Below, piece by piece: positions 122 through 6,056 of a stretch of 64,000 bases of DNA. The stretch's first letter is position 1. The number at the start of each line of letters is the position of its first letter. Under the pieces are notes generated by a model. The model worked only from the letters and a program-made list of their open reading frames with translations, had not been told where the DNA came from and did no database searches. The DNA comes from Desulforapulum autotrophicum. GTDB taxonomy: Bacteria; Desulfobacterota; Desulfobacteria; Desulfobacterales; Desulfolunaceae. The stretch lies in contig DYJE01000009.1 of assembly GCA_020723285.1 (NCBI GenBank), positions 1-64,000 of the forward strand. Direction: 5' to 3'. The position numbers were made by a program, and so were the translations under genes.

Positions 122-250
122 CATGGAACAAACCCAGAGGGATTTTGATCGGCCCGTCATCAAGCCTTGACTTCTCTTTCCATTCTTATTACGGTGTCAC
201 TTTCAAAAAATTTGAACACCATCAACCCGATGATTTTTATGGAGAAAAGC

Positions 251-670
251 ATGAGCAGCTGCGAGATTTCAGAACCCCAGGGCGATATGATCATCGCCAT
301 GACAAAGACCGGCTATTCCGAAAAAGCCGCCCGTTACTATTTCATGAAACCCAATATGGGGCGGATCGAGAATGCCGATCAGGTGGCCAATTTCGAGGGA
401 ACCTGCGGAGACACCATGACCATTTACCTGAAAATCAAGGACAACGTCATCGAAGACGCCAAATACGAGGTGATGGGATGCGCGGGAGCCATATCCGCCG
501 CCATGGCCGCCGTGGATATCATCAAGGGAAAAACCCTTGATTTTGCGAAAGATGTGAACGACGGAACCATTTTTCAGGTCCTCGAAGAAATTCCCGAAAA
601 GAAACACCACTGCATTCAGCTCGCCGTCAAAACCCTTCACAAGGCCCTCGACGAGTACGCATCGAAATAA
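251..670 (+). CDS. NifU/IscU-type iron-sulfur cluster scaffold protein
   Basis: 139 residues, the size of a stand-alone NifU N-terminal domain. The three cluster-ligand cysteines of the family are visible: C52 followed by G-D (the conserved Asp is D54), C77 in MGCAGA, and C121 in the HHC motif near the end. Such proteins assemble a transient Fe-S cluster from sulfide delivered by a cysteine desulfurase and pass it to apo-proteins in the cytoplasm. The start at 251 is chosen because GGAG lies 7-10 bases upstream; an in-frame ATG at 239 and a longer frame from 167 lack one. A cysteine desulfurase is encoded 1.5 kb away on the other strand (2175-3626) and is a plausible partner, although the two genes are not co-transcribed. 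Family assignment is firm; the client proteins are unknown. Confidence 0.88.
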   Translation: MSSCEISEPQGDMIIAMTKTGYSEKAARYYFMKPNMGRIENADQVANFEGTCGDTMTIYLKIKDNVIEDAKYEVMGCAGAISAAMAAVDIIKGKTLDFAKDVNDGTIFQVLEEIPEKKHHCIQLAVKTLHKALDEYASK

Positions 671-713: not shown

Positions 714-1127
714 TCAGAGTAGACGGACGTTGCAATCCGTTGCGGCACGGATTAATTGCTTGTCCTGGGTCGCGAGGGGCAGGCCCTTTTTCATGGCGAG
801 GTCCAGATAGGCGGCATCGTAGCTTGAAAGGCCATGATTTCTCGCCAGCATCACGATTCCACGGAGTGTTTGTTCAGGTGTTTCTTGAACAACGATGATG
901 GGCAATCTACTTAAAAGGGCAATAAAACGTGCTGTTTCAGCTTCGTTTATCCGTTTTCTTCTTTCGGCCACCAAAAGAACGTTACATACTTCAAGAGGCC
1001 ACAGTGATGGGGTATAGGCCGTGGCCGTTTCGAGTTTTTTTAAAATGGTGTCTGTTTTTTCGTAGCTTTCATCTTCAAAGCACCACGCCATGACGATGGA
1101 ATTGTCTACGACAAAATCACCGTTCAT
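714..1127 (-). CDS. PIN-domain toxin (VapC-like)
   Basis: 137 residues. PIN nucleases use a cluster of acidic residues with Mg2+ to cut RNA, often tRNA or rRNA. Here D8 (VVDNS), the mid-protein acidic residues, SYDAAYLDLA and a late TQDKQL segment match the PIN pattern. The ATG follows the antitoxin stop codon with no space (TAA then ATG), so the pair is translationally linked with the antitoxin first. The product belongs to the branch that has WPLEVCNVLL in the second helix. Toxicity and target cannot be read from sequence. It converges with the NifU-like gene; a short GC hairpin near 690-706 without a T-run lies between them. Confidence 0.85.
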   Translation of the reverse strand: MNGDFVVDNSIVMAWCFEDESYEKTDTILKKLETATAYTPSLWPLEVCNVLLVAERRKRINEAETARFIALLSRLPIIVVQETPEQTLRGIVMLARNHGLSSYDAAYLDLAMKKGLPLATQDKQLIRAATDCNVRLL

Positions 1128-1370
1128 TTATCGGCGTCCTTCATCGATCATCTCACGGATTGAAAGGCCATCAAGACGACAGTTTTTACGGAAATGACGA
1201 AGTTCCTCGATGGTTTCGCGGATATCGGATGTTTTGCACGAACCGGGAGGGGGCTGAAGAACCGCAACAGGAATACCATGCTTTGTGATGAGAATCTGTT
1301 CTCCCTTTATCACCCGTTCGATCAGTTTTGGTAAATGGGTTTTTGCTTCATACGCACCTATACAGTCCAT
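1128..1370 (-). CDS. Phd/YefM-family antitoxin
   Basis: 80 residues. The pattern IGAYEAKTHLPKLIERV, then GEQILITKHGIPVAVL, is the Phd/YefM fold: an N-terminal DNA-binding dimer domain followed by a flexible tail that wraps the toxin. The family both neutralises the toxin and represses its own operon. The start at 1370 is used because AGAGGGA lies four bases upstream; the frame is open further back to 1472 but without a ribosome site. The stop codon abuts the PIN toxin start. No clear operator palindrome was found upstream. Confidence 0.85.
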   Translation of the reverse strand: MDCIGAYEAKTHLPKLIERVIKGEQILITKHGIPVAVLQPPPGSCKTSDIRETIEELRHFRKNCRLDGLSIREMIDEGRR

Positions 1371-1468
1371 AAATCCCTCTCTGTTTATAAACCAGTCTGA
1401 TACAAGTCTAAAGTGACGCCGATTCATTGTCAACGGATTTGTTGCCCCTGGGACCGGCACAGGATCAC

Positions 1469-2161
1469 TCAACGCCGCATGGCCCGGATCTGGCGTTTGG
1501 TTTCCGGGGACACCCGCAGGGATTCGGTGATTTTCTGGAGGGATTTGTTGAAGGTGAAATCATCCAGGCGGCAGCGGTTGAGGTAGGTGAACGTTTTTTC
1601 AGGGTATTTTACGAAACAGATGGAAACGGCCCAGGCCACGGCCATGCGGACGTAATAGCCTTCGTGGCGGACAGTGTCCAGAAGCGGAAAGAGCCGGTCG
1701 ATCCAGACTTCGTCGATGTAATAGGAGAGAAGCATCACCACGGCGAAACGGATCGTGAATTCCTCATTGGATTCCAGAAAGGGTTGAAGGAATTCAAAGA
1801 CCGTTTCCCTGTTCTTTTTTGTGAAGGTCAGGCCGGTGCAGAAGCTGTCGCACAACGACCAGTTGGTGATGAAGGGGACGAACCGGGCCACAAGGGATAG
1901 TTTCTCTTCGGTGTCGGCTTTGGCGTACCCGATAACCATACCCAGAAGCATCACTTCTTCGAAACATCCTGTGGGCGCGGTGTTGACGTAAGCGCGCCAG
2001 TCTTTTTTCGCGATGTCCCTGGCGATTTTGCGGAGCAGTGGCAACCGCACACCCAGAATGGTGTCGCAACCTGGAAGAAGGGCGGCGGCAAAGGTTTTGT
2101 AGGATTCGTCGGCCAGCTGTTCCAGCTGTTCCCGGATTGACGGGATCCATGTGTCGCTCAT
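1469..2161 (-). CDS. AlkD-like DNA alkylation repair protein
   Basis: 230 residues. The sequence reads as helical HEAT-like repeats, with the family-typical start (IPSIREQLEQLADESYKTFAAALLPG, then LGVRLPLLRKIAKDI-like) and later VRMAVAWAVSICFVKYPEKT. AlkD-type proteins wrap damaged DNA and excise bulky or cationic N3/N7-alkylpurines without base flipping. Whether this paralogue keeps the glycosylase residues cannot be settled here, so a DNA-binding HEAT protein without activity is the alternative. It lies in the same direction as, and just upstream of, the toxin-antitoxin pair and downstream of the cysteine desulfurase; the ribosome site is weak. Confidence 0.75.
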   Translation of the reverse strand: MSDTWIPSIREQLEQLADESYKTFAAALLPGCDTILGVRLPLLRKIARDIAKKDWRAYVNTAPTGCFEEVMLLGMVIGYAKADTEEKLSLVARFVPFITNWSLCDSFCTGLTFTKKNRETVFEFLQPFLESNEEFTIRFAVVMLLSYYIDEVWIDRLFPLLDTVRHEGYYVRMAVAWAVSICFVKYPEKTFTYLNRCRLDDFTFNKSLQKITESLRVSPETKRQIRAMRR

Positions 2162-2174
2162 CTCATACCATCCA

Positions 2175-3626
2175 TCAGACCCGATGTTCCTTTCTGTCTT
2201 TCAACTGTTCGATGATTTCCGGCAGGTAGGTGAAAAGATAGTCGATGTCTTCTCTTGATGAATAGAGCCCGAAGCTGAAACGTAACGTGCCGTATTTTTC
2301 CGTGTCCACGCCGATGGCCTTGATGACCGGCGACGCTTCCTTGCTGCCCGCGCCGCAGGCCGATCCGCCGGAAACATAGACGCCGATCTGGTTCAGGCTG
2401 ATGAGAAGGGCTCCGCTGTCCACATGGGGAAAACCGATGTTCAGGTTTGTGGGAAGCCGCTGGTCCATGGAACCGTTGATGATGTAACCGGGCACATGGT
2501 GGTCCAGTTTTTTCAGGAAATAATCCCGAAGCTCGCCGATCCGTTTCATTTCAGAGACCATTTCCCTCTGGGCCAGTTCTGCGGCTTTTCCGAAGGCCAT
2601 GATGTGCCCGACGTTTTCCGTTCCGGCTCTGCGGTGAAATTCCTGTTCCCCTCCGTGGATGAGAGGGACGAGGTTGTAGCGGTCATCGATGTACAAAGCT
2701 CCGATTCCTTTGGGACCGTATATTTTATGGGCTGACATGGACAGGAACGTGATGCCCATGTCCTTGGGTTTCAGATCCATTTTGCCGAAGGCCTGGATGC
2801 CGTCCACCATGAAGGGAACTTCCGCCAGGGCGCACAACCGGCCGATGTCGGCAATGGGGTTCACAGTGCCGATTTCGTTGTTCACGGCCATGACCGAAAC
2901 AAGGAGGGTGTCGGAACGGAGGGCGTTCTGGATCTGGGTCGGGGTGACGAGGCCGTTTGAGTCCACATCGATGAACGTCACGTCGAAATTGAACATTCCC
3001 AGAAACTGGATGGGTTCTAAGACCGACGGATGTTCGATCTGGGTGGTGATGATGTGACCTTTGGATTTGGATAGGATATGCTTGAGGGCCACACCCTTGA
3101 TGGCCATGTTGTTGGCTTCGGACCCGTTACCGGTGAAAACGATTTCCTGGGGTTTGACGCCAAGGCACCGGGCGATGGTGGTTCGGGCTTTCAGGGTTTC
3201 TTCAAAGGCTTTTTTCCCGAGAAACGTGCTGCTGGAGGGGTTGCCATGACCTATGGCCCCTTGGGTGTATGCCGTGAGAACCTTCGCCACTTCCTTGCGG
3301 ATGGGTGTTGTGGCGTTGTAGTCCATATAGACCTGTCTGGGGTTTTCCACCTGGACCTGGGCGATGGGTTTGCACAGGTGATCCACCGAGTGGATGGGGA
3401 TACCCACCCAGGTGTAGACGGAATTGAGGCCGTGGGGGAAAAGATCCTCGATGTCCTCCCGTGTGGCACCGGTGTAGCGTTCGATATTGGCGTAAAGGGG
3501 CCCGACCCTGTGTTTTTCATAATAGCTGTAGGCGAATTCAAGAACGGTGCGGTGTTTTTCCGTCAGCGACGTCCCGGTTCGCCTGGCCATCTGATTGATG
3601 AACGTTTTGACATAGTTGTTCAGCAT
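2175..3626 (-). CDS. Cysteine desulfurase with N-terminal DsrC/TusE-like domain
   Basis: 483 residues, about 90 longer than NifS/IscS. Residues about 100-475 are the PLP fold: H199 in IEHP, D275 in MVDGIQAFG, the Schiff-base lysine K301 in SAHK, and the persulfide cysteine C424 in a GGSACGAGS loop. Such enzymes convert cysteine to alanine and hold the sulfur as a persulfide for Fe-S assembly or thiolation. Residues about 18-80 resemble DsrC/TusE, with LTEKHRTVLEFAYSYY, then GPLYANI and LFPHG. DsrC carries persulfide or trisulfide in sulfate reduction and TusE relays sulfur in tRNA thiolation. The two C-terminal cysteines of DsrC are not conserved; the nearest is C85. The ATG follows a modest GAG. 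The desulfurase call is firm; the relay domain is an inference from motif similarity. Confidence 0.88.
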   Translation of the reverse strand: MLNNYVKTFINQMARRTGTSLTEKHRTVLEFAYSYYEKHRVGPLYANIERYTGATREDIEDLFPHGLNSVYTWVGIPIHSVDHLCKPIAQVQVENPRQVYMDYNATTPIRKEVAKVLTAYTQGAIGHGNPSSSTFLGKKAFEETLKARTTIARCLGVKPQEIVFTGNGSEANNMAIKGVALKHILSKSKGHIITTQIEHPSVLEPIQFLGMFNFDVTFIDVDSNGLVTPTQIQNALRSDTLLVSVMAVNNEIGTVNPIADIGRLCALAEVPFMVDGIQAFGKMDLKPKDMGITFLSMSAHKIYGPKGIGALYIDDRYNLVPLIHGGEQEFHRRAGTENVGHIMAFGKAAELAQREMVSEMKRIGELRDYFLKKLDHHVPGYIINGSMDQRLPTNLNIGFPHVDSGALLISLNQIGVYVSGGSACGAGSKEASPVIKAIGVDTEKYGTLRFSFGLYSSREDIDYLFTYLPEIIEQLKDRKEHRV

Positions 3627-3647: not shown

Positions 3648-4532
3648 TCAGTATGTTGACGTGTTGTCGGCATCCGGGTAAAGGTGAAATGGAAAACCTG
3701 TGCGTGAATCCGCCATGCCGTTGATAACTTCGCAGAAATCGGTGTAGGGCATGCCGATGCCCATGCGGTTTCCTTCGTACTCGGCGATGAGCCGGGCTCC
3801 CAGGCAGTAGGTGGACACGTTGATGGAACCTGTGAGGTAAGGCCGTACAATCAGGTCGGAATTCACCACTCTCAGGCCACCCATGCTGGCCGTGACACGG
3901 CGTCCGGTGTTGAACTGATAGGCCTGGATGATCCGGGTGAGTTCCACAGGCCTGACGCTCAAAATCACCACATCCGGTTCAAGATCCATGGTGTCGTATT
4001 CGGCGGAATAGAAAAAAACGGCTTTTGTGTCGGCGGGTTCGATGGCTGTCATTTCGGAAACGGCCTGTTTCGCAAGTTCTGCGTTTCTGTAACGGCCACT
4101 GTCTTCTTTTCCGAAAAGGGCGAACTGGTCGCATCCCGAATCCTTGCAAGCGTATACGAGACCCTCGGTGAAATCCCTGGGCGACGGAGGCTGGAAGGCT
4201 TTGTCCTTGGCGGCCTGTTTTTCCATGAGATCCGTATAGACCCTGGAGCCTCCAAGGGGTTTGTCTTCGTTTTTATCCACCAGGCCGAAGGTGATGGCCG
4301 CGGCCACGCAGCCGATGTTTTGCCGGGTGAGGCAGACCGCGTCCCCGAGGGAGGCCTGTTTGGCGGCCTGACAGCTGGTGAGTGAGATGCCTTCGGGGGT
4401 GTAGCGTTTGACCGCATCGGGAATGGCCGCGTCGATTCCCCGGAAAAACTTCACAGCGGTCATGGGGATGACAAGCCCCGGAACACCCATATTCTGGATC
4501 ATGCTCTGGTATTGTTCTTTCAGTCTCGACAT
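3648..4532 (-). CDS. DUF169 family protein
   Basis: 294 residues, cytoplasmic, preceded by GAGGT at a good distance from the ATG. The C-terminal half contains the DUF169 signature region (EPDVVILSVRPVELTRIIQAYQF, then ASMGGLRVVNSD and later NVSTYCLGARLIAEY). Eight or so cysteines are spread through the chain, several of them (CLTRQNIGCVAAA, CLGAR) in segments that are conserved in the family. The biochemical role of DUF169 is not established; members are frequent in anaerobes including sulfate reducers and methanogens. It lies 21 bases upstream of the cysteine desulfurase on the same strand, so the two are probably one transcript. That makes a role linked to sulfur or Fe-S handling possible but unproven. 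Confidence 0.75.
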   Translation of the reverse strand: MSRLKEQYQSMIQNMGVPGLVIPMTAVKFFRGIDAAIPDAVKRYTPEGISLTSCQAAKQASLGDAVCLTRQNIGCVAAAITFGLVDKNEDKPLGGSRVYTDLMEKQAAKDKAFQPPSPRDFTEGLVYACKDSGCDQFALFGKEDSGRYRNAELAKQAVSEMTAIEPADTKAVFFYSAEYDTMDLEPDVVILSVRPVELTRIIQAYQFNTGRRVTASMGGLRVVNSDLIVRPYLTGSINVSTYCLGARLIAEYEGNRMGIGMPYTDFCEVINGMADSRTGFPFHLYPDADNTSTY

Positions 4533-5441: not shown

Positions 5442-5675
5442 ATGAGGGCAACAGCAAAAGATCTCAGATTTCATTCGAAAGAAATTCTGGATACAGTCAG
5501 TAGAGGTGAGGAAGTTGTTATTACATATCGAGGCAAGCCTTGTGCTAAGCTTGTGCCATACAGTGAAGCCAAAGATGCCGTGTCAAAAAACGAACTGTTT
5601 GGAATATGGAAAAACAATGATTCCACCCAAAGTGTTGATGAATATGTCAGAAACCTGAGAAAGGGCAGGTTCTAA
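5442..5675 (+). CDS. Phd/YefM-family antitoxin
   Basis: 77 residues with the same architecture as the antitoxin at 1128: TAKDLRFHSKEILDTVSRGEEVVITYRGKPCAKLVPY, then a charged tail expected to fold on the toxin. GAGGAGGTGG precedes the ATG. Its stop codon abuts the toxin ATG. A strong promoter and a possible operator lie immediately upstream, consistent with autoregulation by the toxin-antitoxin complex. Confidence 0.87.
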   Translation: MRATAKDLRFHSKEILDTVSRGEEVVITYRGKPCAKLVPYSEAKDAVSKNELFGIWKNNDSTQSVDEYVRNLRKGRF

Positions 5676-6056
5676 ATGGTTCTCATCGATACCGATGTTC
5701 TTGTATGGTATATGAGAGGCAATGAACAAGCTTATGATATTGTCGAGAATTCAAAAGGATTCTTTATCTCTGTTGTCACTTACATGGAACTCGTTCAGGG
5801 AATGAGAAACAAAAAAGAGTTAACAAGCCTGAGAAAAGCCTTTTATGGCTGGAATACTAAAATTCTCTATATTTCTGAGGATATATCGGCTAAAGCTATG
5901 TTCTTTGTTGAGCAGAATTTTTTGAGCCATTCTGTGGAATTGGCGGATGCGCTGATCGCGGCGACGGCAATGGCCCATGGCCTTCCAATTCTTACGGGAA
6001 ACGAGAAACACTACAGGGCAATGGGTGATATCATGATCCGTAAGTTTATGGCATGA
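5676..6056 (+). CDS. PIN-domain toxin (VapC-like)
   Basis: 126 residues. PIN signature: D5 in LIDTDVLVW, a mid-chain Glu in TYMELVQG, an Asp in ELADALIAATA and the late Asn/Glu in TGNEKHYR. Members are Mg2+-dependent endoribonucleases held inactive by the partner antitoxin. Translation is coupled to the antitoxin (TAAATG junction). It is of a different subfamily from the PIN protein at 714, so the two pairs are probably not recent duplicates. A short hairpin overlaps the stop codon. Confidence 0.87.
   Translation: MVLIDTDVLVWYMRGNEQAYDIVENSKGFFISVVTYMELVQGMRNKKELTSLRKAFYGWNTKILYISEDISAKAMFFVEQNFLSHSVELADALIAATAMAHGLPILTGNEKHYRAMGDIMIRKFMA

Follow-up and report, generated by a model that had tools for sequence, protein, structure and literature searches.

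The stretch of DNA analysed here (the window) corresponds to positions 1 to 64,000 of contig DYJE01000009.1 of Desulforapulum autotrophicum, read on the forward strand. Two adjacent genes are encoded on its minus strand, the first for a DUF169 protein and the second for a chain in which an N-terminal DsrC-like domain continues into a class I cysteine desulfurase (Table 1). A scan of the locus for promoters and terminators performed no better than on shuffles.

Table 1. Features of the DUF169/fusion locus and of a nearby scaffold gene (window coordinates)
Feature	Position	Strand	Evidence
CDS, DsrC-like domain + class I cysteine desulfurase, 483 aa from ATG	2175..3626	-	ORF call; homologous loci
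DsrC/TusE-superfamily domain, residues 3-68, helical core + LFPxG motif	3423..3620	-	PF04358, hhalign, AF2 model
Class I cysteine desulfurase domain (Aminotran_5), residues 99-464	2235..3332	-	PF00266; TIGR03402; Foldseek
K301, predicted PLP-binding lysine	2724..2726	-	invariant 20/20; SxHK motif aligned with solved desulfurases
C424, predicted catalytic persulfide cysteine, mobile loop	2355..2357	-	invariant 20/20; loop 422-429 of low pLDDT
C85, arm cysteine after GIP, proposed sulfur acceptor	3372..3374	-	invariant 20/20; MAFFT column in common with canonical DsrC
DUF169 partner, 294 aa, first gene of the two-gene unit	3648..4532	-	PF02596, 111.5 bits; directly upstream in 22/22
NifU/IscU-type scaffold gene	167-670	+	PF01592, 90 bits; 1.5 kb off the fusion, opposite strand

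Domains of the fusion protein

That a DsrC/TusE-like domain is here fused to a complete desulfurase was the central claim of the initial annotation, made from the sequence alone, and homology searches bear it out. The N-terminal 98 residues match PF04358 (Pfam DsrC) significantly over residues 3-68 (30.5 bits, E=5.1e-7, against a gathering score of 24.9 bits), and the same model is matched by 20/20 homologous N-domains, each by itself. A profile of the fused N-domains aligns with canonical DsrC at an hhalign probability of 98.0% (E=2.5e-13), and the only meaningful matches of this part of the protein in the PDB are DsrC proteins (2xsj, 2v4j and others), the match rising to E=3e-9 with a 20-sequence N-domain profile. 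The score against TIGR03342, the NCBIfam model for DsrC/TusE proper, is 23.4 bits, below its cut-off of 53.5. Because the DEDGF N-terminal segment and the free C-terminus have been lost, the N-terminal part is classified by its sequence as a domain of the DsrC superfamily, being neither DsrC nor TusE proper. In the AF2 model, residues 4-73 form mostly confident helices (4-17, 23-39, 45-52, 56-62 and 67-73), and the domain is present in each full-length homologue; the region is thus neither disordered nor absent, as had been considered possible. Conservation is equal for the N-domain and for the whole protein, the mean column identity among fusion homologues being 64% in both cases.

Residues 99-464 match PF00266 (Aminotran_5) at E=9.3e-72, their predicted fold resembles Nfs1/IscS (Foldseek E=8e-41), and the catalytic set K301, H199, D275, Q278 and C424 is invariant in 20/20 aligned fusions, K301 and C424 being the two residues named in the initial annotation. 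These residues comprise what appears to be a complete class I cysteine desulfurase, whose activity is predicted from the intact catalytic residues. It has in common with IscS, NifS and Nfs1 the complete catalytic domain and its residues, with 31-38% identity to solved structures; it differs from them in its N-terminal DsrC-like domain, in forming a separate clade and in scoring below the equivalog cut-offs of NifS (TIGR03402, 401.5 against 530.75 bits) and IscS (TIGR02006, 335.1 against 643.2 bits). The model is of low confidence at residues 79-84 of the arm and in the loop bearing C424, and the C85-C424 distance is therefore not readable from it; a low pLDDT at residues 422-429 would be expected of a mobile cysteine loop.

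Another desulfurase fusion is the eukaryotic Moco sulfurase, in which a NifS-like domain is joined to MOSC. Both proteins tie the donor domain to a client or acceptor domain, although the partner domain differs. As a separate observation, a genome of Candidatus Scalindua (G485) contains a 1130-aa ORF (L150:3739-7131, minus strand) which combines a molybdopterin oxidoreductase with a NifS-type cysteine desulfurase, and which perhaps serves the sulfur loading of the Mo cofactor.

The cysteines of the DsrC-like arm

According to the initial annotation, both redox cysteines of DsrC are missing from the fusion. This stands for one of them only: the place of CysB is taken by Y71/T72, but C85 occupies the same MAFFT column as the penultimate cysteine of real DsrC proteins, after a 3-residue insertion, and sits 3 residues farther from the GLP/GIP motif than its DsrC counterpart. 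Four cysteines are found in the window copy, and solely C85 and C424 are invariant (20/20); C85 is kept also in L104, in L105 and in L052, a further copy interrupted by a contig edge. Invariant on the arm like C85 are W73, I76, P77 and K86. C85 is not penultimate on a free C-terminus, for the chain runs on into the desulfurase domain, which leaves the tethered arm without a loose end. The DEDGF segment, a beta-hairpin in DsrC/TusE, is missing from the fusion in the alignment, and no N-terminal strands appear in the AF2 model.

The penultimate cysteine of DsrC is strictly conserved and is the sole sulfur-binding cysteine of the arm, while the second arm cysteine is almost confined to DsrAB-bearing organisms and is lost in TusE-type proteins (PMC3397948). 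Since C85 is invariant and lies in the column of the sulfur-binding penultimate cysteine, a TusE-like single-cysteine arm would suit the alignment better than a domain devoid of an active cysteine; most likely, the functional, sulfur-binding type of DsrC cysteine has been retained as C85, only the second one having been lost.

With DsrC/DsvC the fusion shares the helical core, the YY...P...LFPxG motif and the conserved cysteine on the arm that follows. DsrC/DsvC is, however, a free small protein that carries CysB besides the penultimate cysteine and acts as partner of DsrAB, whereas the fusion has neither CysB, nor the DEDGF segment, nor a free C-terminus, and is found in genomes without any other DsrC match. 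With TusE of the IscS-TusA-TusBCD-TusE-MnmA relay it shares the single-cysteine arm and a proposed relay role downstream of a class I cysteine desulfurase; yet TusE is a separate protein, fed via TusA and TusBCD, with MnmA as its client, whereas the fusion holds donor and acceptor in one chain and has DUF169 as its constant partner. A further arrangement of the superfamily was seen in genome G480, which encodes, in addition to a canonical DsrC, ORFs of 260-283 aa with two tandem DsrC domains (G480:C3:19552-20292 and G480:C45:121201-121938).

Partner, spread and neighbourhood of the fusion

The DUF169 gene is found directly upstream of the fusion, on the same strand, at 22/22 full-length loci, namely 19 loci in named genomes, two close relatives and the window. 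The two genes are 21 bp apart in the window; among the 19 named loci the median distance is 17 bp, with the genes overlapping in some and separated by an outlying 283 bp in one. A linkage to DUF169 had already been noted from the window; it proves constant in at least eight phyla, and stronger than could have been known from one locus. The partner is a Pfam member (its PF02596 score compares with a cut-off of 27), but within DUF169 / COG2043 at large it belongs to a clearly separate subfamily associated with the fusion, scoring 447-521 bits with its own profile against at most 28 for the other DUF169 proteins of such genomes. C54, C75 and C243 are invariant in this subfamily, and the positions of C54 and C75 are occupied by cysteine in most other DUF169 proteins too. 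The partner is modelled with confidence (pLDDT 89), and a fold search returned no PDB match with E<=0.001, the best VIA Z being 3.2; the partner may nonetheless adopt a known fold.

As to what DUF169 proteins do, one is encoded in the Desulfovibrio 'nitrate cluster', whose loss makes cells resistant to nitrate and for which the authors of that study suspect a function in thiosulfate uptake (PMC4001038); for another, a link to YedE, a transporter of sulfur/selenium, has been described (PMC5322559). The fusion is always accompanied by the module DUF169, while the converse is false, because 5/395 genomes of the phylum sample contain the subfamily without the fusion. The view that DUF169 strictly requires the fusion was accordingly rejected, the fusion being absent from 5/8 phylum-sample genomes with the module DUF169, and DUF169 would not always need the fusion as donor. 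L146:4739-7864 contains three consecutive genes, for a second DUF169 protein, a TPR protein and a DUF169 of the module type, and no desulfurase fusion; a region of L147 looks similar.

The hosts of the fusion belong to Thermodesulfobacteriota, Nitrospirota, Chloroflexota, Planctomycetota, Pseudomonadota, Gemmatimonadota, Myxococcota and Ignavibacteriota, one being unclassified. Since there are 21 full-length homologues beyond the window, in at least eight bacterial phyla, the fusion is not an artefact. It is nonetheless rare and patchy, occurring in 3/395 genomes of the phylum sample and in 4/96 relatives, the genome of the window being included in both counts; no relative was found on viral contigs. 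When the desulfurase domains of 23 fusions were placed in a tree with 17 other class I desulfurases, mostly from fusion-bearing genomes, they grouped together as a single clade (support 100/100). A single origin with later loss or transfer would be the simplest reading of this pattern. An ordinary class I desulfurase, with 31-43% identity to the fusion, is also encoded in 12/12 fusion genomes examined, and the fusion is therefore an extra copy. The genome of the window likewise encodes an ordinary class I desulfurase and a separate canonical DsrC. Because 9/21 fusion-bearing assemblies (drafts, for most of which completeness is not given) show no other DsrC/TusE match, the DsrC-like domain appears to be independent of the sulfite-reductase pathway, and DsrAB-type sulfite metabolism was rejected as a general role.

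Signalling genes lie near about half of the fusion loci; the window belongs to the other half. A gene combining CheY, NMT1_2 and CheW adjoins the DUF169/fusion pair co-directionally in L038 and L051, a co-directional NMT1_2 neighbour is found in L045, and an MCP together with CheY-NMT1_2-CheW in L052. Co-directional PAS kinases occur in L033-L036 and L039, and cNMP-binding proteins in L047-L048. In genome G015 a CheY-NMT1_2-CheW gene has a member of the module DUF169 subfamily as its neighbour, and the fusion is absent. A link of the pair to signalling is suggestive only. The NMT1_2 signalling protein itself was rejected as a marker of the module for want of specificity, homologues being present in 25/92 relatives that lack the fusion.

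Single proteins that unite CheY and CheW with a substrate-binding domain of the NMT1_2 type are an observation in their own right: this architecture was checked with Pfam at L038:5205-7115 and L148:5036-6985, and recognised by similarity at L051:5036-7063, L040:10560-12479 and L052:3016-4905, these genes all adjoining or lying near DUF169/DsrC-desulfurase genes. In Scalindua (L039:2434-9437) the pair comes after genes for a formate-dehydrogenase/NasC-like molybdoenzyme and a hybrid histidine kinase on the same strand. Within the window, the NifU/IscU-like gene of Table 1 and an AlkD-like gene (1469-2161) were both rejected as members of the unit, neither having a counterpart close to any full-length fusion. 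A PhdYefM/PIN toxin-antitoxin pair is encoded at 714-1472 (minus strand; Pfam), and a second pair, alike by reading only, at 5442-6056 (plus strand); such pairs on both flanks of the module may hint at mobility.

A candidate sulfur relay and its alternatives

The constant pairing at 22/22 loci makes a dedicated sulfur-transfer module, as the initial annotation had suggested, the best reading, one drawn from genomic context, with the transfer itself remaining inferred. The pair would act as a two-gene sulfur-delivery unit, DUF169 being followed by the DsrC-desulfurase fusion. Judging from the intact and invariant catalytic residues, the PLP-dependent desulfurase domain would move the sulfur of L-cysteine onto C424 as a persulfide; C85, on the arm connecting the two domains of the fusion, would receive it next and hand it on to the co-encoded DUF169 protein with its three invariant cysteines. 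The N-terminal segment of class I desulfurases forms part of the small domain that carries the cysteine loop, and an acceptor domain at the N-terminus is therefore sensibly placed. The fusion would thereby constitute a private relay for which a separate TusA/TusBCD/TusE chain is not needed, and its desulfurase would serve one client, in contrast to the general IscS/NifS pool also present in these genomes. Points against it are the 3 extra residues between the GLP/GIP motif and C85, the double tether of the arm and the 5/395 genomes in which the DUF169 subfamily does without the fusion. I consider the chances about even that a relay from cysteine through C424 and C85 to DUF169 explains the unit.

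The loss of CysB, of the DEDGF segment and of the free C-terminus is also what one might expect if the DsrC-like domain merely docked, bringing the C424 persulfide to DUF169 or to another client, with C85 structural and the sulfur leaving straight from C424. A guiding role of this kind had been proposed in the initial annotation, and the invariance of W73, I76, P77 and K86, which equals that of C85, fits a binding surface. Against it, of the four cysteines none but C85 and C424 is invariant, and C85 falls in the alignment column of a known sulfur-binding cysteine; docking without transfer through C85 seems rather doubtful. A different reading, compatible with the relay, is that the delivered sulfur sets the state of DUF169, as a persulfide or an Fe-S cluster, which DUF169 then reports to a kinase or to a chemotaxis-type protein. 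Co-directional signalling neighbours in independent lineages speak for such a circuit, as does G015, where a DUF169 gene of this subfamily has a CheY-NMT1_2-CheW neighbour without the fusion; yet about half of the loci, the window included, have no signalling neighbour and NMT1_2 homologues are common without the fusion (25/92 relatives), and the circuit is deemed unlikely.

The superfamily contains a member, TusE, that hands sulfur to MnmA (PMC5372717), DUF169 is present in some archaeal SepRS clusters (PMC8762117), and nine fusion genomes (drafts) have no other TusE/DsrC match; together, these points might suggest a short-cut in tRNA 2-thiouridine synthesis, in which the desulfurase and its TusE-like domain feed MnmA directly. 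No mnmA was recognised beside the pair in the loci examined, however, the constant partner is DUF169, and the patchiness of the module (3/395 and 4/96 genomes) is unlike a general need of tRNA, all of which renders the short-cut very improbable. The desulfurase also scores high on the PADLOC models for SspA (420.7 bits) and DndA (415.1 bits), as might be anticipated for a desulfurase of the DndA/SspA type in a DNA phosphorothioation system. Such scores are to be expected of any class I desulfurase; the fusion reaches only 322.9 bits against a cut-off of 480 for TIGR03235 (DndA), neither DUF169 nor the neighbouring AlkD-like gene matches any PADLOC model, and no dndBCDE or sspBCD was recognised among the neighbours looked at, so that a role in phosphorothioation can practically be discounted.

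To return to the relay, the neighbours suggest that the product or the sensing function of DUF169 is tied to signalling or to sulfur-anion metabolism. A broader view, speculative and on balance improbable in its entirety, is that of a widely transferred sulfur-trafficking system in which a built-in DsrC-type arm loads DUF169, and the loaded protein, as a sensor of sulfur status or an enzyme that inserts sulfur, is coupled to signalling through kinases or through chemotaxis-like proteins (CheY-NMT1_2-CheW).

The open-access literature searched yielded no account of the fusion, of its tethered arm or of the fixed DUF169 partner. Neither domain is new in itself, nor is the principle of relaying sulfur; the new elements would be the fusion, the tethered arm and the constancy of the DUF169 partner. 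Usual desulfurases supply many clients via separate carriers, whereas here donor and proposed acceptor are one protein tied to one partner. A DsrC-type arm would thus have a use beyond sulfite reduction and beyond the Tus relay as known, and the role of this DUF169 subfamily, as a candidate sulfur acceptor, becomes directly testable.
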